64,000 nucleotides of DNA, taken from positions 3,083,793 through 3,147,792 of the forward strand of contig NZ_JBEWCD010000002.1 of assembly GCF_040530035.1 (NCBI RefSeq), in the 5' to 3' direction. Of the stretch, positions 44,043 through 51,020 are shown piece by piece; the first letter of the stretch is position 1, and each line of letters starts with the position of its first letter. Source of the DNA: Roseibium sp. HPY-6 (GTDB taxonomy: Bacteria > Pseudomonadota > Alphaproteobacteria > Rhizobiales > Stappiaceae). Below the pieces are notes generated by a model. That model saw only the letters and a list, made by a program, of their open reading frames with translations. It had not been told where the DNA came from and made no database searches. A program made the position numbers and the translations under genes.

Positions 44043-44255
44043 TTACTGCGAGTTTTTGTTCCGTGCGCTTCTCACAGCTCTCACACACAAAAATCCGACC
44101 ACGGCCGCACCAAACAATAGCGCCAGATGAAACGGCGTTCCGAGAAAATGACCAACGGTCTCCGTTACGCCGCTGATCTCGTGGTGATCGCCAGGATGCG
44201 CAAAGACGGGCGTCGAAACGGCTGTTACGGCTGCAGCAAGGCTAAGGTGTTTCAT
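44043..44255 (-). CDS. small exported or membrane protein with His motif (DUF6732-like)
   Basis: The 70-residue product has a signal peptide (MKHLSLAAAVTAVSTPVFA), then HPGDHHEISGVTETVGHFLGTPFHLALLFGAAVVGFLCVRAV with one membrane helix. The HPGDHHE stretch just after the cleavage site could bind a metal, like the opening of HupE/UreJ-type nickel carriers. It resembles short DUF6732-type proteins. The start overlaps the upstream gene by four bases, so it is part of the operon. Confidence 0.7.
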   Translation of the reverse strand: MKHLSLAAAVTAVSTPVFAHPGDHHEISGVTETVGHFLGTPFHLALLFGAAVVGFLCVRAVRSARNKNSQ

Positions 44256-44728
44256 TTGGCGATATCTCCTGTGTTCAATCGGTCGGTCAGGACTGTGATC
44301 AGGTCTATGTCTGTGCGCTCAGTGAGAGACACATAGGTGAAAGTCATTGTTTCCCGTCCGGAAACCATTTCGCCCGGAAAAGGCATGTAGACGAGTTCTC
44401 GCGATGCAAATGCCGGCGACGCGGTTCCGATCTGCCAGTTGGAGACGATCTTCGCATCAACGAGATGTTGGATAAGACTGTCCGAGCCGGGCCGGTGGAA
44501 TGGCACCCCGGCAAGCCTGAGATAGCTGGTCTTGTCGTCAGCTGCCCTGAACCCATCGATGAAACTTGTTGCAAGCGCCTGCAATTCATCTGCTTTTTCC
44601 GCCGGCGATGCCCCATGAACGTGCGAATGCAGGTGATCGGGGCTGGAATGGTTGTGATCATGCGGATGGAGGTGGTCATGATCATGGTGGTGGTGGTCGT
44701 GGTGATGATGATGTTTCATGGTTGTCAC
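44252..44728 (-). CDS. histidine-rich protein, candidate metal-handling partner of the ureohydrolase
   Basis: The 158-residue protein has 19 His in the first 39 residues, arranged with Asp (for example KHHHHHDHHHHDHDHLHPHDH). The remaining 115 residues form a globular-looking domain (ADELQALATSFIDGFRAADDKTSYLRLAGVPFHRPG and YVSLTERTDIDLITVLTDRL) that I do not recognise. His-rich tails are seen in nickel chaperones such as HypB and UreE. It overlaps the ureohydrolase gene by four bases. I infer that it stores or delivers the metal, probably nickel. Confidence 0.75.
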   Translation of the reverse strand: MTTMKHHHHHDHHHHDHDHLHPHDHNHSSPDHLHSHVHGASPAEKADELQALATSFIDGFRAADDKTSYLRLAGVPFHRPGSDSLIQHLVDAKIVSNWQIGTASPAFASRELVYMPFPGEMVSGRETMTFTYVSLTERTDIDLITVLTDRLNTGDIAK

Positions 44729-45963
44729 GCCACCTCCGGACCGGCTGGGATGGAAACCGGTTTGTCGATGATTGACTTGTGGGATCCCATCTTCCCGTGG
44801 GACACCAGCGTTCCAAGAACATCGACAATCACGCGTGTGGCGAGGAGGGCGGTTATGTCGGAACAGTCGTAAGGAGGCGACACTTCGACGACTTCAAGCC
44901 CACAGATGCCTTCCTTCGCAACGAGAGACACGAGTTCCAATGCTTCACGGGGCAGGAAGCCGCCCGGTTCCGGCCAACCCGTTCCCGGAACGAAGCCGCA
45001 ATCGACACTGTCGATGTCGAACGAGATATAGACGGCGTCCGCATCTTTCCAGGCCAGTTCGAGGGCGCGCGCGGCGGTTTCCGCAAGACCGAGTTCTTCA
45101 ACGTCACGCATGGTGAAGATGTTGGTGTTGCGCTCGCGCGCGACCTCGACCCCCTCGCGCGGCACCTGCCATCCGCCAATGCCGATCTGGACCAGATTGA
45201 CGGCCGGAACATTGACCAGGTCCGTTGCATGGAACCAGGGCGTTGTGTGCATGCGCTCGTCCAGGTCTTTCTCCTGGATATCGATGTGGCGATCGAAATG
45301 GACGATGCCGATACGCTTTGACGTGCACTCCGCGATACCGCGAACGCAGGGAAACCCGATGGAATGATCGCCGCCGATCATGATCGGCAAGGCGCCTGAG
45401 GAGGCAACGTGGGACACCGCTCGGGTGATCTGGTCGAACGTCTTTTCAATGTTGGCGGGGATGGTGAAAATGTCCCCGACGTCGCATAGCGTCATCTGTT
45501 CACGCAGATCGACACCCATCTCGTAATTGTATGGTGTGTAAAGCGCTGAGATCTTGCGGACGCCCTGCGGGCCGAACCGGGTTCCCGGCCGATAGGTGGT
45601 GCCGCCGTCAAACGGTATTCCGATGATCGCCGCGTCATAAGCGCCAACCTGGGTCACATCCTCAATGTAAGGCGCTTTCAGGAACGTATTGATGCCGGCG
45701 TAGTGGGGCAATTCTCCGCGCGCAAACGTGGGAATGGACTTGTCGGTCAGGCTGTCAGACCCGGTCAGCCCCATGCGCAGCGCCCAGGCCTTTTCCTTTT
45801 CCCAGGCAGCGGTCGGCAAAGTGCCTTCTTTTTCCGCGGACTTCCAGCCGCGCAGCTGCAGCTTGTCGAAATCCGGGTGGTGATGCCGTTCTGCCGGTGA
45901 CCGTGAAACGGTTCCGGCGGCGCGGTGCCGGGTTGCGGGACCGTATTGATCAAGAATACGCAT
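44725..45963 (-). CDS. ureohydrolase-family enzyme, probable nickel-dependent guanidine hydrolase
   Basis: The 412-residue protein keeps the dinuclear metal motifs of the agmatinase/arginase family: GGDHS (His200), HFDRHID (Asp224, His226, Asp228) and SFDIDSVD (Asp316, Asp318), then GTGWPEPGGFLPREAL. A 95-residue N-terminal extension makes it longer than agmatinases of about 310 residues. Long members of this type include cyanobacterial guanidine hydrolase (GdmH, Sll1077 of Synechocystis), which needs Ni2+. The guanidine-I riboswitch in the leader strongly favours guanidine as substrate, giving urea and ammonia. Agmatine or another guanidino compound is not excluded. Confidence 0.85.
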   Translation of the reverse strand: MRILDQYGPATRHRAAGTVSRSPAERHHHPDFDKLQLRGWKSAEKEGTLPTAAWEKEKAWALRMGLTGSDSLTDKSIPTFARGELPHYAGINTFLKAPYIEDVTQVGAYDAAIIGIPFDGGTTYRPGTRFGPQGVRKISALYTPYNYEMGVDLREQMTLCDVGDIFTIPANIEKTFDQITRAVSHVASSGALPIMIGGDHSIGFPCVRGIAECTSKRIGIVHFDRHIDIQEKDLDERMHTTPWFHATDLVNVPAVNLVQIGIGGWQVPREGVEVARERNTNIFTMRDVEELGLAETAARALELAWKDADAVYISFDIDSVDCGFVPGTGWPEPGGFLPREALELVSLVAKEGICGLEVVEVSPPYDCSDITALLATRVIVDVLGTLVSHGKMGSHKSIIDKPVSIPAGPEVA

Positions 45964-45972
45964 GGGCGTTCC

Positions 45973-46809
45973 TCATGGGTGGTTGGTGTCTTGGGGTTTG
46001 TCAGATGTCTTATTGCCGCCAGTCCGGATCGCACCGGCGATCTCATCGGGGGCGGGCGTGCTGTTACCTGTCGCGGGAGCTTTGAGCGGCAGGTCATAGG
46101 TAATGGTTGCCCCATAGGCTTCCGGGGCCTGAGGGTCATGCCGGATCTTGTCGAAGACCAGTAACCGCGTTCCGAGCTTGAAGGCTTCGTGGATGTCGTG
46201 CGTAACCATGAAGATTGTCATGCCAAGATCGCGCCAGAGCCCGAGCATCAATTCATGCATATCAACCCGGATACCCGGGTCGAGGGCGCCGAAAGGCTCG
46301 TCCAGAAGAAGAATGCTTGGTTTTTTGACGAGCGCCTGCGCGATCGCAAGCCGCTGTTGCATGCCGCCAGAAAGCTGGGAAGGGTACTTTTCCGCCGCTG
46401 CCGCCAGTCCTATGCGCTCAAGCACTTCTTCAATTTCACCGAGCGCAGCCCGTTTCGCGGCTCCGAAGAGTTTCCCTGTATAGGGTGCTGCTTCAAATTC
46501 CTTTGCAAGGATCAGGTTTTCAGCAACGGTCAAATGGGTGAAAACGGAATACTTCTGGAAGACGATGCCCCGGTCCGGTGTCGGCTCCTCAGGAAGCGCA
46601 TCGCCATCAAGGAGTATCTCGCCTCTTGTAGGATGTTCTTGCGACAACAACATGCGCAAGAATGTAGATTTGCCGCAGCCGGACGCGCCAACAATCGTAC
46701 AAAACGCGCCCTTGTCGACGTCAAGCTCAATCCGTTCGAGCACGGGCGTGCCATCGTAGTATTTCGAAACACCTCTGACGCGAAGCTTAGGATCCGTGTG
46801 GGCGCTCAT
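45973..46809 (-). CDS. ABC importer ATPase (nitrate/sulfonate/taurine type), guanidine operon
   Basis: The 278-residue ATPase has Walker A VGASGCGKST, signature LSGGMQQRLAIAQAL, Walker B ILLLDEPFGALDP and switch His in MVTHD. It pairs with the upstream permease (four-base overlap) and precedes the ureohydrolase by nine bases. It should power import of the riboswitch ligand. Confidence 0.92.
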   Translation of the reverse strand: MSAHTDPKLRVRGVSKYYDGTPVLERIELDVDKGAFCTIVGASGCGKSTFLRMLLSQEHPTRGEILLDGDALPEEPTPDRGIVFQKYSVFTHLTVAENLILAKEFEAAPYTGKLFGAAKRAALGEIEEVLERIGLAAAAEKYPSQLSGGMQQRLAIAQALVKKPSILLLDEPFGALDPGIRVDMHELMLGLWRDLGMTIFMVTHDIHEAFKLGTRLLVFDKIRHDPQAPEAYGATITYDLPLKAPATGNSTPAPDEIAGAIRTGGNKTSDKPQDTNHP

Positions 46810-47627
46810 AGCGCATCACCTCCGGCGTGATGCCAGCGGAACGCCCGCCGGGACAACAGCAGAAGCAACCTGTCGAGGAGAAAGGCAAGCAACGTGATCC
46901 AAAGAACATAGGGAAGGATCACGTCCATCGCGAGGTAGCGTCTTACAAGGAAGATTCTGTAACCCAGCCCGGTGGTCGAGGCGATCGCCTCCGCGGAAAT
47001 CAGGAAAATCCAGGCGGGGACGAGGCCGAGCCGGAGCGCTGTGATCAGTTTGGGCAGCACCTGGGGCAGAACAAGCCGTGTGATCATTTGCCAGACGGTT
47101 GCGCCGAGCGTTTCCGCCTTGATGATCATCTCCCTTGGAATATCGAGAACCGCCTGTGCCGTGGAACGGATCATCACAGGTGCTGTTCCAATGACGATCA
47201 GAGCAATCTTTGCAACTTCGCCGAGGCCAAACGTAATGAAGAGGATCGGCAGAATGGTTATCGGGGGGATCAGGGAAAAGGTCGCCAGATAGGGCGCAAG
47301 AGCACTCCTGACATGGGGAATGAAGCCGATAGCTATGCCGAGCGAGAGCGCCATGACAGTGGAGACAGCCATTCCGGTCCCGAGGCGCCATAGGCTGTCA
47401 ATCGTATCCACCCATAGAAGAAGATCACCCGACCGCCTGTCCGGGATCGCCGCCATGCGCCAGAAGGCTGCCCCCATGCTTTCCAGCGACGGCAACAGCT
47501 TGTCTGCCGGATTTTCCAAACGCCGGTAATGGCTTGCCACCGAATAGACGATGATGGTTGCCACAAAAGGCAAAGCACCAAGGGCAAGAGCGGTCACCCG
47601 GGAAGGTTTCCGGTTGATGATACGCAT
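46806..47627 (-). CDS. ABC importer permease, guanidine operon
   Basis: The 273-residue protein has about six membrane segments and the EAA-type loop near VLDIPREMIIKAETLGATVWQMITRLVLPQVLPKLITALRLGLVPAW, as in the nitrate/taurine/sulfonate permease group. It lies 71 bases after the binding-protein gene and overlaps the ATPase gene by four bases. Confidence 0.92.
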   Translation of the reverse strand: MRIINRKPSRVTALALGALPFVATIIVYSVASHYRRLENPADKLLPSLESMGAAFWRMAAIPDRRSGDLLLWVDTIDSLWRLGTGMAVSTVMALSLGIAIGFIPHVRSALAPYLATFSLIPPITILPILFITFGLGEVAKIALIVIGTAPVMIRSTAQAVLDIPREMIIKAETLGATVWQMITRLVLPQVLPKLITALRLGLVPAWIFLISAEAIASTTGLGYRIFLVRRYLAMDVILPYVLWITLLAFLLDRLLLLLSRRAFRWHHAGGDAL

Positions 47628-47698: not shown

Positions 47699-48769
47699 TC
47701 AGAGTGCGCCGTCTGCCGCCATTTGCATGTAGCTTGGATCAAAGCGAAGCTTCACGTTGTTCGCATCGCCATAGATCGACCCGTCAGGGAACGACACGCC
47801 CACAAACTCAGGGCTCGGAGCACCTTCACCAAGGATTCCCTTGTCATAGAGAAATTCGGCAACGAACTTCATCGTGGCCGGCAACTCGGCCGCCTTGGAA
47901 AATTCGACAGCCTCCGCAGGCGTATAGAACATCTTGGTGGTCGCCAGCTGGGCGTCATACCCGGCCAGATCCGTGCCAGACGCCTCCGCCATCGCCGTAC
48001 GGGCGGCAATCCCGGCGTCCGTATCGCTCGACATTATGGACATCAGTTCATACCACGCGCCGACAAGCGCTTTGCCGAAGTCCGGATTGTCCGCAAGCGT
48101 TTCAGTGTTGACCATCATGATGTCGATGATTTCACCCGGAATGCCGGCGCTGTCGAAGACTTTGGTTGCATTCGGCTGAGCTTCTATTTCGGAAAGAAGC
48201 GGGTTCCAGGTCACGACCGAAGTGACGTCCGCGGTCGCGTAAGCGGCGATCATGTCGGCGTCGGAGGTATTGATAACGGTGAGGTCTTTTTCAGACAAGC
48301 CGACCGTGTCGAGTGCGCGTGCCAGAAGATAGTGGGAAACGGAGAGTTCAACCAGGTTGACGGATTGGCCCTTGATCTCGGCAAGATCGGTTTTGTCTTT
48401 TAAAATGATGCCGTCGTTTCCGTTGGAATAGTCACCGACAATCAGCGCGGTCGTATCGACACCGCCACCGGCAGGGATCGACAGGGCGTCCATGTTGGTC
48501 ATTGAGCAACCATCATATTCGCCGGCTGTATACTGGTTGATGGATTCGACATAGTCGTTGATCTGCACGATCTCGACGTCAATCCCGTATTTGTCGGCCC
48601 ATTTTTTCATGATGCCGCTATCTTGCAGATACCCCCAGGGCATCCAGCCGACATAAATCGACCAGCAGACTTTGAAGTCTTTCTTTTCCTCGGCCTGTGC
48701 TGATGAAATGGAAAGCGGCAACGAAAGAGCTGCTGCTATGAGGGAAGCTTTGGCAAACGATTTCAACAT
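47699..48769 (-). CDS. ABC importer periplasmic binding protein, guanidine operon
   Basis: The 356-residue protein has a signal peptide ending SSAQAE. The mature part starts KVCWSIYVGWMPWGYLQDSGIMKKW and includes INDYVESINQYTAGEYDGCSMTNMDAL, typical of the binding protein found near urea carboxylase genes, previously annotated as a urea importer (TIGR03427 as I recall). Riboswitch control suggests guanidine or a related cation. The ATG at 48769 follows AGGAGA. It is the first gene of the operon. Confidence 0.9.
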   Translation of the reverse strand: MLKSFAKASLIAAALSLPLSISSAQAEEKKDFKVCWSIYVGWMPWGYLQDSGIMKKWADKYGIDVEIVQINDYVESINQYTAGEYDGCSMTNMDALSIPAGGGVDTTALIVGDYSNGNDGIILKDKTDLAEIKGQSVNLVELSVSHYLLARALDTVGLSEKDLTVINTSDADMIAAYATADVTSVVTWNPLLSEIEAQPNATKVFDSAGIPGEIIDIMMVNTETLADNPDFGKALVGAWYELMSIMSSDTDAGIAARTAMAEASGTDLAGYDAQLATTKMFYTPAEAVEFSKAAELPATMKFVAEFLYDKGILGEGAPSPEFVGVSFPDGSIYGDANNVKLRFDPSYMQMAADGAL

Positions 48770-48842
48770 GTGTGCGCGTCTCCTGTCTTAAGCCCGGTGG
48801 AAGGAACCGGTTGAGCTTGCGTCATGAGTTTCTTGCGCACGT

Positions 48843-48889
48843 CCGGGAGCAGGTTCGCGCGCGCGAAACCTCGTGCAGTAGTCTCCCGG
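48843..48889 (-). promoter_or_regulatory. possible expression platform of the riboswitch
   Basis: The conserved aptamer strand CCGGGAG (48883-48889) can instead pair with CTCCCGG (48843-48849) 33 bases downstream. This pairing would be mutually exclusive with the folded aptamer. Between them lies a strong hairpin, GGTTTCGCGC with GCGCGAACC (48852-48870). No U-run follows, so control could be on Rho, translation or pausing. The pairing is seen; its role is inferred. Confidence 0.4.
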
Positions 48890-49000
48890 GTTTTTGTCCC
48901 GCCGTGTCACCGGACTGTTCTGACCATGGCCATTCTTTTCCGGCTTGCGCCTCTCGGTCCTGCGTTTTTGGAAACCGGATCCCTAGGCGCGCTGCACGCC
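48871..49000 (-). ncRNA. guanidine-I riboswitch (ykkC)
   Basis: On the minus strand the leader carries, in order, CCTAGGG (48981-48987) then ATCCGG, GGACCGAGAGG (48950-48960), ACACGG (48902-48907) and GGGACAAAAA with CCCGGGAGAC (48881-48900). These are the conserved blocks of the guanidine-I aptamer. The outer stem P1 is closed by CGTGCAG (5' arm, 48992-48998) and CTGCACG (3' arm, 48872-48878), a perfect seven-base pairing. It is 102 bases before the start codon of the binding-protein gene. Nelson and co-workers showed this class binds guanidinium. Confidence 0.93.
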
Positions 49001-49008
49001 TTTATCGT

Positions 49009-49025
49009 TGCAAACCGAATGCCAA
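49009..49025 (-). promoter_or_regulatory. sigma-54 promoter ahead of the guanidine riboswitch
   Basis: On the minus strand, TTGGCATTCGGTTTGCA has GG at -25/-24 and GC at -13/-12 with the exact spacing of the sigma-54 consensus (YTGGCACGRNNNTTGCW). Counting 12 bases on from the -12 C puts the start at 48998, the first base of riboswitch stem P1, or at the neighbouring G residues. Such promoters usually need NtrC or another enhancer-binding activator. A TGCACC half-site is visible near 49095, but no full NtrC site. Confidence 0.65.
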
Positions 49026-49279
49026 AATCAAAATCAGAAGAAATATATCATTAAATGCAAACACTTGATAAATTTGACGAGCCACAAAGCTGAGTGCACC
49101 GCCGACGCTTGGCTGACCTATCTGATCAAAAAGTAGGCATCGGTGAGGAGAAATCAGTCACTTCGCTGCACGTGAACTGACGCATTATGAACCAAAATGA
49201 CGAAAGGCGGATCATGCATTATGGGGCCGAGGCGAGGGGACTACCCTTGGCGCTCCAACTTTGGACACCGCATACGCTG
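49026..49279. other. upstream region of the guanidine operon
   Basis: About 250 bases upstream of the sigma-54 promoter contain no gene. They are AT-rich near 49040-49080 (ATATATCATTAAATG) and hold a TGCACC half-site near 49095. An enhancer-binding site would be expected here; none is certain. Confidence 0.35.
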
Positions 49280-49802: not shown

Positions 49803-51020
49803 CTATGGATATGCAAGTTCCAAAGTTTGTTGCGCCCGTTTGACTATTTCCGCATCTGGCAGTTCAGATAAGTCCAGGGCGGGTTGCGCACCGTTTAGCG
49901 CCATGATCACCGGTTGACCTGTGTACGGGACCAGGTTGAACCATTGATTGAACTGGCCCTGGGGAAGGCCGTTTTCGGGCGTCGCAATCCATGTGACATC
50001 CGCGTCCCAGAAAACCTCATCATAGCGCAAGTAGACCTTATCCAAGGTGCCCATTCCCAATTTGACAATCGCATCCACTTTTTCGCGCGGCAATGGCGGG
50101 GAGAAGGCAATTGCTCCATTTTTCAATACACCAAGGGATGTCGTTAAGATCATTGCGTCGAACGAGTGATGTTGCCCGGTCTGGTCTTGCAGCTGGACGC
50201 TGTTTTCCTCGACAACGACGTTGGTCACGACATGCCCCAATCGAATGTCGATGTTGTCTGGCACCGCATTCAACAGTTGATCATAACCGCCGGGCAAAAT
50301 CACTTCATCGCCGCCGTAATCTGAATCCCGCCAATACGCCAAACTGTTGATTTCATTCATGTCAGCGCCAGCGGTGTGTTGTACCGACACGACGTTTTCA
50401 AGCCACTCCGGAACATCGGCATCATCAATTCTCCGACCATCGCCACCACGCACGATGTAGTTCTTTGACGTTGCCTTCATTTCAAGCCCAAGTGAGCCAG
50501 CAAGATCCGTCAATGGATTGCCGTCCGCACCGTGGATCCAGCTTGCGCCTAGATCGAAAGGTGTTCCGAGACTGTTGTCCGTCCAGATCCGACCGCCAAT
50601 ACGATCACGCGCTTCAAGGACGGTGACATCATATCCTTCCCCTACAAGGGCTGTCGCAGCAGTAAGACCGCTCGCACCCGCACCGACAATGCCAACGGTG
50701 TTGGCGTCAGTTTCGAAAACAGCCTCTGCAGCGATTATCCCGGACTCGTACGCAGCATGGACGGAACTGTTGTAGTTGGGGTGCGTTGCTTCGCCCGCAA
50801 AGAACAATCGGTCCCTGAAAGGTTCACCCAGGACTGCGTGATGACGTCTTTGCGCACCTTTGGCCACATACGAATAGGAGCCAAGACTATAGGGGTCACG
50901 GCTCCAGTTTGTCCGAATGTACCCAGTGGCAACGCGCCTGCCTTGCTCCGCGTGCGCCAGTGGAACGAAACCCGAGGCCAAAACGCCCAATGTCATGTTC
51001 AAAAAGCATCTGCGCCGCAA
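49803..51020 (-). CDS. circularly permuted flavin amine oxidase
   Basis: The 405-residue protein has a twin-arginine type signal (RRRCFLNMTLGVLASGF, then LAHA). It is followed first by the segment that normally ends polyamine oxidases (about 33-101: GYIRTNWSRDPYSLGSYSYV and DRLFFAGEATHPNYNSSVHAAYESG). Only then does the usual N-terminal FAD Rossmann start (about 107-145: VGIVGAGASGLTAATALVGEGYDVTVLEARDRIGGRI), running on to ELAYP and stop. Homologues continue after AYP straight into the GYIRTNW-type segment. Both FAD-contacting halves are present, so the enzyme could fold. The start is a TTG (ATG at 50996 is the alternative). Confidence 0.85.
   Translation of the reverse strand: MRRRCFLNMTLGVLASGFVPLAHAEQGRRVATGYIRTNWSRDPYSLGSYSYVAKGAQRRHHAVLGEPFRDRLFFAGEATHPNYNSSVHAAYESGIIAAEAVFETDANTVGIVGAGASGLTAATALVGEGYDVTVLEARDRIGGRIWTDNSLGTPFDLGASWIHGADGNPLTDLAGSLGLEMKATSKNYIVRGGDGRRIDDADVPEWLENVVSVQHTAGADMNEINSLAYWRDSDYGGDEVILPGGYDQLLNAVPDNIDIRLGHVVTNVVVEENSVQLQDQTGQHHSFDAMILTTSLGVLKNGAIAFSPPLPREKVDAIVKLGMGTLDKVYLRYDEVFWDADVTWIATPENGLPQGQFNQWFNLVPYTGQPVIMALNGAQPALDLSELPDAEIVKRAQQTLELAYP

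Follow-up and report, generated by a model that had tools for sequence, protein, structure and literature searches.

A guanidine-I riboswitch operon of Roseibium sp. HPY-6 and a histidine-rich protein as candidate nickel supplier of the guanidine hydrolase GdmH

Described guanidine operons and the Roseibium locus

GdmH, a guanidine hydrolase, was reportedly recognised as a nickel enzyme in a paper of 2022. Operons that combine a guanidine-I riboswitch, an importer and GdmH are known from Synechocystis and marine picocyanobacteria, according to the available parts of the reports (PMC8390497, PMC10119275, PMC12186494), and hypA/hypB genes are described in cyanobacterial GdmH operons (PMC10119275, PMC8390497). 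The gdmH operon of Synechocystis PCC 6803 is given as riboswitch, gdmH, ghaA, ghaB and ABC importer, and activation of its GdmH is stated to require GhaAB in the available text of PMC11271267.

In Nitrospira inopinata a guanidine-I riboswitch and a guanidinase occur with an APC permease, and the accessible part of the report names neither GhaA/GhaB nor a dedicated nickel protein in the operon (PMC11410670). Nickel loading of this guanidinase was called unclear there, no chaperones having been found in the genome, and enzyme produced in E. coli was active though incompletely nickel-loaded (PMC11410670). The chaperones of metformin hydrolase were reported in one study, available in part, to have no significant influence in cell extracts, yet the knockout was unable to grow.

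The window analysed here, a stretch of 64,000 nucleotides from Roseibium sp. HPY-6, carries a locus of the same kind, composed of the following features.

48881..48997, minus strand: guanidine-I riboswitch aptamer (RF00442, 64.4 bits, E 3.9e-9; 107.2 bits with our own model R1, the window being one of the 8 sequences in that model's build set)
47699..48769, minus strand: ABC substrate-binding protein (TIGR03427), 356 aa, 562.6 bits against a cut-off of 333.9
46806..47627, minus strand: ABC permease, 273 aa (PF00528, 1.8e-19)
45973..46809, minus strand: ABC ATPase, 278 aa (PF00005, 3.9e-33)
44725..45963, minus strand: GdmH-type guanidine hydrolase, 412 aa, with an N-terminal HHPD motif (PF00491, 3.1e-77; 7esr, 3.3e-162; 9fek, 3.8e-158)
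44252..44728, minus strand: histidine-rich protein, 158 aa, its start overlapping the gdmH stop

The sequence-only reading had proposed a ureohydrolase/ABC-importer operon behind a riboswitch, and binding protein, permease, ATPase and ureohydrolase indeed follow the leader in this order on the minus strand. With Synechocystis PCC 6803, for which the comparison draws on the available parts of published papers, the locus shares the riboswitch class, the type of importer and the GdmH specificity residues (PMC8390497, PMC12186494, PMC11410670). It differs in having the importer genes before gdmH, and in lacking ghaA and ghaB, a histidine-rich protein following gdmH instead. With N. inopinata it shares the riboswitch class, the guanidinase and the lack of GhaA/GhaB, whereas an ABC importer stands where that operon has its APC permease. 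The architecture of riboswitch, importer and GdmH is thus already published, and this locus adds a further example. What is new relative to the literature found is the His-rich gene after the ureohydrolase; no description of a guanidinase paired with a His-rich protein was found in the open-access literature, of which the matching papers were covered in part.

To compare the locus with its relatives, genome contigs were scanned with a GdmH profile, which gave at least 563 relatives. The 80 loci used below are the best of these and are therefore near kin; 79 carry names that we take to be alphaproteobacterial, the other (L036) being an Anaerolineae bin. In this metagenome bin the GdmH is 83% identical to the query and is accompanied by a short His-rich partner, which may reflect transfer or else faulty binning.

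Over 350 residues the ureohydrolase can be aligned with Synechocystis GdmH (7esr/7oi1) at 543 bits and with 9fek, the entry given for the N. inopinata guanidinase (PMC11410670), at 530 bits, while the next solved entry reaches 179 bits. Residues Thr105, His222, Trp313 and Glu344 are named as the guanidinase set in N. inopinata numbering (PMC11410670, available in part). T123, H239, W330 and E360 of the window enzyme match them if the numbering of the crystal chains runs two above that of the paper, and this single offset brings all four into agreement. The corresponding Thr, His, Trp and Glu motifs occur at all 80 loci, at 79 by pattern and at L086 with the Trp recognised by eye. The N-terminal extension of GdmH contains an HHP[DNE] motif just as generally (80 of 80 loci; residues 28-31 in the window, 45882-45871 minus). 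The same motif occurs in a Rubrobacter GdmH-like protein (L089) that has no His-rich partner, so the motif alone is no proof of docking.

It had also been warned that the enzyme would otherwise be annotated as an agmatinase. The warning was fair, since the NCBIfam agmatinase model scores 173.3 bits, just below its cut-off of 174.3. The riboswitch class, the gene order and guanidine as the probable substrate are upheld as far as sequence allows, and we regard the assignment of ligand and enzyme as almost certain. Urease genes are present elsewhere in the genome.

Two further genes lie upstream of the leader. A flavin amine oxidase (49803-51020 minus) looks circularly permuted relative to the LSD2 chain 4gu0: its residues 31-99 resemble the C-terminal 703-771 of that chain, 108-200 resemble 338-430, and 211-401 resemble 495-692. 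No relative was found in the ORFs of L001-L088 other than the window's own copy (E 1e-15). A tRNA gene with a long variable arm is located at 52178-52092 minus (RF00005, 63.4 bits).

The leader RNA

The conserved blocks of the ykkC aptamer (CUAGGG, CCGAGAG, ACACGG and CCCGGGAGA) are found in order on the minus strand, as the sequence-only reading had it. Infernal with all of Rfam 15 on the 64 kb window gave an RF00442 match over the full model (1-107), 1.4 bits above the curated gathering score of 63. Confined to 48840-49030, the search returned the same family at E 1.2e-11, besides a single chance match (E 4) on the other strand. The aptamer is present as a single copy in the 7.03 Mb genome. 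With 64.4 against 63 bits and genes for guanidine import and degradation downstream, the claim of a guanidine-I riboswitch is confirmed.

At Rfam's cut-off for RF00442, seven of eight related loci tested pass, and the close relative L010 falls below it. A covariance model, R1, was built from the window leader and the seven passing loci, and finds an equivalent at 79 of the 80 GdmH loci, including L010 at 99.5 bits. The match at L031 is weak (52.2 bits) and that at L049 is clipped by the contig end. R1 detects no aptamer at L036, where the upstream sequence comprises only 1373 bases. R1 also detects an aptamer at L093 and ahead of L089, the GdmH-like gene of Rubrobacter, and none at L090-L092.

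The aptamer is enclosed by a further helix.

48872..48998, minus strand: end-closing P0-like helix, CGTGCAG (48998-48992) pairing with CTGCACG (48878-48872)

This helix had been read as a perfect seven-base P1. The seven pairs are there; P1 itself lies inside, and the helix joins the ends of the aptamer, which makes it P0-like. In the available part of PMC6031431 a helix joining the ends of the ykkC aptamer is named P0, described for the PRPP aptamer and stated to be absent from guanidine-I. The same paper gives residue C49 as the mark that distinguishes guanidine aptamers from those of ykkC subtype 2. The window departs from this trait of the guanidine aptamer, which stands outside Rfam's definition. 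The RNA is kept in the guanidine-I class because the Rfam model is satisfied, and the helix is recorded as a difference.

To assess the helix across the family, the 82 leaders minus L031 and L049 were compared with shuffled 3' flanks. The longest flank-flank helix has at least six pairs in 57 of 80 leaders against 22.1 expected, and at least seven in 42 of 80 against 9.0. Helices of four pairs (80 of 80 against 73.6) and five pairs (71 of 80 against 48.8) are near chance, and only those longer than four to five pairs are informative. A GCAG/CTGC core is common to 69 leaders, so kinship contributes to these counts. Among the leaders, nine lack the GCAG core, and their helix does not score clearly above swapped flanks (mean score 4.7 against 4.2). 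The outer pairs covary in a few leaders, for example L029 and L066; 94.8% of cells were paired, in an alignment that had been fitted to the structure. The end helix can serve an expression platform.

A candidate for such a platform lies at the 3' side of the aptamer.

48843..48889, minus strand: candidate competing hairpin, CCGGGAG (48889-48883) with CTCCCGG (48849-48843), and an inner stem of 48871-48863 with 48858-48851

The hairpin would sequester the 3' strand of both P3 and the end helix; no T run follows it. The minimum-energy fold of the whole leader contains it, and that of the 69-nt 3' stretch alone does not. A CTCCCGG-type complement of the aptamer's CCGGGAG occurs 16-21 nt past the model end in 38 of 82 leaders, against 7.5 expected from mononucleotide shuffles. 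Leaders of Rhodobacteraceae mostly lack this complement, judged by eye, and may use other hairpins. The folding energy of the whole leader was no better than that of shuffles (z -0.05), and likewise for the 3' part. A terminator scan found no intrinsic terminator on the minus strand of the leader. The hairpin would compete with P3 and the end helix, and may in this way halt expression. A promoter-like site at 49071-49042 was rejected as chance level, with 2 such sites in the region against 2.6 expected.

The histidine-rich protein and its linkage to gdmH

The 158-residue protein consists of a 39-residue tail, in which 19 residues are His, and a domain of 119 residues that contains 2. Neither Pfam nor NCBIfam contains a family that it matches, and no PDB sequence matches its folded domain, for which Foldseek retrieved no solved structure with an E value of 0.001 or below. 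PF01155 (HypA) and PF02492 (HypB/UreG GTPase) were matched by neither the window protein nor the members scanned (48 in the case of HypA), and neither Pfam nor NCBIfam returned a UreE model. With residues 36-158 as query, at least 765 relatives were found. Among the 120 listed, none carries a Pfam domain, those with names are called 'hypothetical' or 'uncharacterized', and the nearest come from Roseibium/Labrenzia.

Alignment of 48 sequences showed D65, P105 and P118 of the domain to be invariant, and a median of 37% His in the tail against 1.7% in the domain. An N-terminal tail with at least six His is present in 46 of the 48, with tail lengths from 2 to 72; L036 is a weak case, its tail having 10 residues of which 4 are His. 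In L063 the N-terminal tail is absent and HDHAHAHGHDHHHHDHPH stands at the C-terminus instead; 18 relatives of this branch were found, and the C-terminal tail is present in all eight that were read. In L022 and L025 both ends carry a His cluster. Relocation without loss suggests selection on the tail itself.

The UreE tail, the HypB tail, CooJ and Hpn are His-rich nickel proteins or parts of such proteins, small, with a His/Asp-rich stretch, and found beside a nickel enzyme. The Roseibium protein can be likened to these, and its folded domain matches no family model. The HypB of the same genome carries a His-rich tail of its own.

The family is strictly linked to gdmH. It was found directly downstream on the same strand at 78 of the 80 loci. 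At L081 the contig stops at gdmH, and the His-rich gene is located at the very start of another contig of the same genome. The genome of L070 has a partial match that fits a position right after gdmH, presumably on the same contig, as if the tail were frameshifted. The His-rich start precedes the end of the gdmH stop at 53 of 82 loci, the relatives' genes having been called as stop-to-stop ORFs, and the commonest overlap is 4 bases (21 loci).

An unbiased sample consisted of 385 alphaproteobacterial genomes, including that of the window, in which GdmH was called at E up to 1e-90 and the His-rich family at E up to 1e-5. GdmH is present in 11 and the His-rich family in 13. All 11 GdmH genomes have the family adjacent, with at most 61 bases between the matched stretches, against 2 of 374 without GdmH (Fisher p 1.3e-19, genomes treated as independent). 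The two exceptions look like operon remnants. L119 has part of the gene for the guanidine binding protein joined, in another frame, to the His-rich domain, behind which the His tail follows; this junction may have arisen from misassembly. L120 retains a decayed fragment with a stop.

Among 72,556 plasmid records, the family was found in 7, whose accessions are identical to those of the 7 alphaproteobacterial records with GdmH. The records with GdmH-like genes number 11, and the remaining 4 are actinobacterial and lack the His-rich family. No member lies within 6 kb of the GdmH-like gene of the actinobacterial L089-L092. Two of these, L091 and L092, may not be guanidinases, since the Trp is absent from L092 and the DERMHT stretch from L091.

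Beyond the His-rich gene lies another small reading frame.

44043..44255, minus strand: 70-aa microprotein with a signal-peptide-like start, an AHPGDHH motif and one hydrophobic stretch, its start overlapping the His-rich stop

ORFs in this place with an HPG-like motif were found at 15 of 78 loci, of which L030 and L088 look spurious, leaving about 13. The microprotein is possibly a periplasmic metal-handling helper.

Nickel supply of GdmH

To establish whether known nickel chaperones accompany GdmH in these bacteria, the ORFs of the 80 loci were searched with phmmer, using the window genome's own HypA and HypB as queries. None was found in the 6.1 to 21.2 kb covered per locus (under 20 kb at 14 of 80), whereas the same search found HypA and HypB in 4 of 4 other control loci. 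At genome level, 50 of the 80 loci were selected and 49 of their genomes, of unstated completeness, were searched for HypA; none was found in 28, and 21 have at least one. The window genome holds its HypA and HypB within a hydrogenase cluster with hydrogenase subunits, HybE, HypD and HypE, and has 12 matches to PF02492, to which the UreG and HypB GTPases belong. Within 6 kb of L089 and L091 no HypA/HypB is annotated; the records of L090 and L092 are without annotation. Dedicated chaperones are not a general requirement, because the guanidinase of N. inopinata shows activity when produced in E. coli and L089-L092 lack the His-rich family within 6 kb.

We infer the ligand, the switching mode, nickel binding, delivery and docking in the following scheme. 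Without guanidine, the leader hairpin would capture the 3' side of P3 and that of the end helix, so that expression would stop; with guanidine, the aptamer would be stabilised and the operon expressed. The ABC importer would take up guanidinium, GdmH would convert it to urea and ammonium, and the urease encoded elsewhere in the genome would complete the breakdown. The His-rich protein would be produced with GdmH by translational coupling. Its flexible His tail would collect nickel, and its conserved domain would dock on GdmH, possibly near the N-terminal HHP[DNE] motif, and hand the nickel over. In this role it would stand in for GhaA/GhaB, the HypA/HypB-type pair of cyanobacteria. We hold this explanation, a guanidine-induced assimilation operon with nickel delivered to GdmH by the His-rich protein, to be probable as a whole. 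Nickel delivery by the putative partner, taken separately, we consider rather probable; the tail could bind zinc, cobalt or copper as well. The chances are about even that the protein represents a new family of enzyme-specific nickel metallochaperones that dock on GdmH, carry the tail at either end and load without a GTPase, with HHP[DNE] as a site that could receive the metal. The known nickel-insertion pairs, in contrast, use a GTPase of the HypB/UreG type.

Several other explanations were weighed against this. A nickel store or buffer, protective or kept in reserve, would hand nothing over to GdmH. The variable, repetitive and very His-rich tail would suit it, and Hpn is a storage protein with such a His-rich sequence; however, the gene is tied to one enzyme gene through overlap and strict co-occurrence, and the conserved 119-residue domain with its three invariant positions in 48 sequences would be superfluous for a mere store, which makes this reading unlikely. 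Somewhat less likely still is a role as structural or regulatory GdmH subunit, with a tail that is incidental or serves solubility or pH buffering. One-to-one pairing and overlap of the genes would agree with a subunit, and heteromeric ureohydrolases exist, as described in the available part of PMC11399263. The N. inopinata guanidinase, however, is given in the accessible text of PMC11410670 as a homohexamer, like the Synechocystis enzyme, and a tail that is N-terminal in 46 of 48 members and shifted to the other end in one branch argues for selection on the tail.

That GdmH obtains its nickel from urease or hydrogenase machinery (UreE/UreG, HypA/HypB), with the His-rich protein as adaptor or bystander, is improbable. 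The urease, the hyp cluster and the PF02492 proteins of the window genome would provide such machinery, but no HypA was found in more than half of the GdmH genomes searched (28 of 49), and a bystander would hardly be retained beside GdmH in 11 of 11 sampled genomes. As for the RNA, the P0-like pairing of its ends, with helices of six or more pairs in excess of expectation, raises PRPP or ppGpp as another ykkC ligand. Guanidine-I is the sole family with a significant match, and R1 aptamers lie upstream of GdmH at nearly all loci, so that a ligand other than guanidine is very improbable.

Nickel delivery to GdmH by the His-rich protein stays the preferred reading. The family occurs with GdmH in relatives from Roseibium, Mesorhizobium, Bradyrhizobium, the Rhodobacteraceae and Thalassospira, where the known chaperones are not beside it, and is a concrete candidate for the nickel supply of guanidinases for which no chaperones were found. 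If the reading is true, it would assign a function to the 765 or more proteins of this family, and would mark enzymes annotated as 'agmatinase family' as likely guanidinases.
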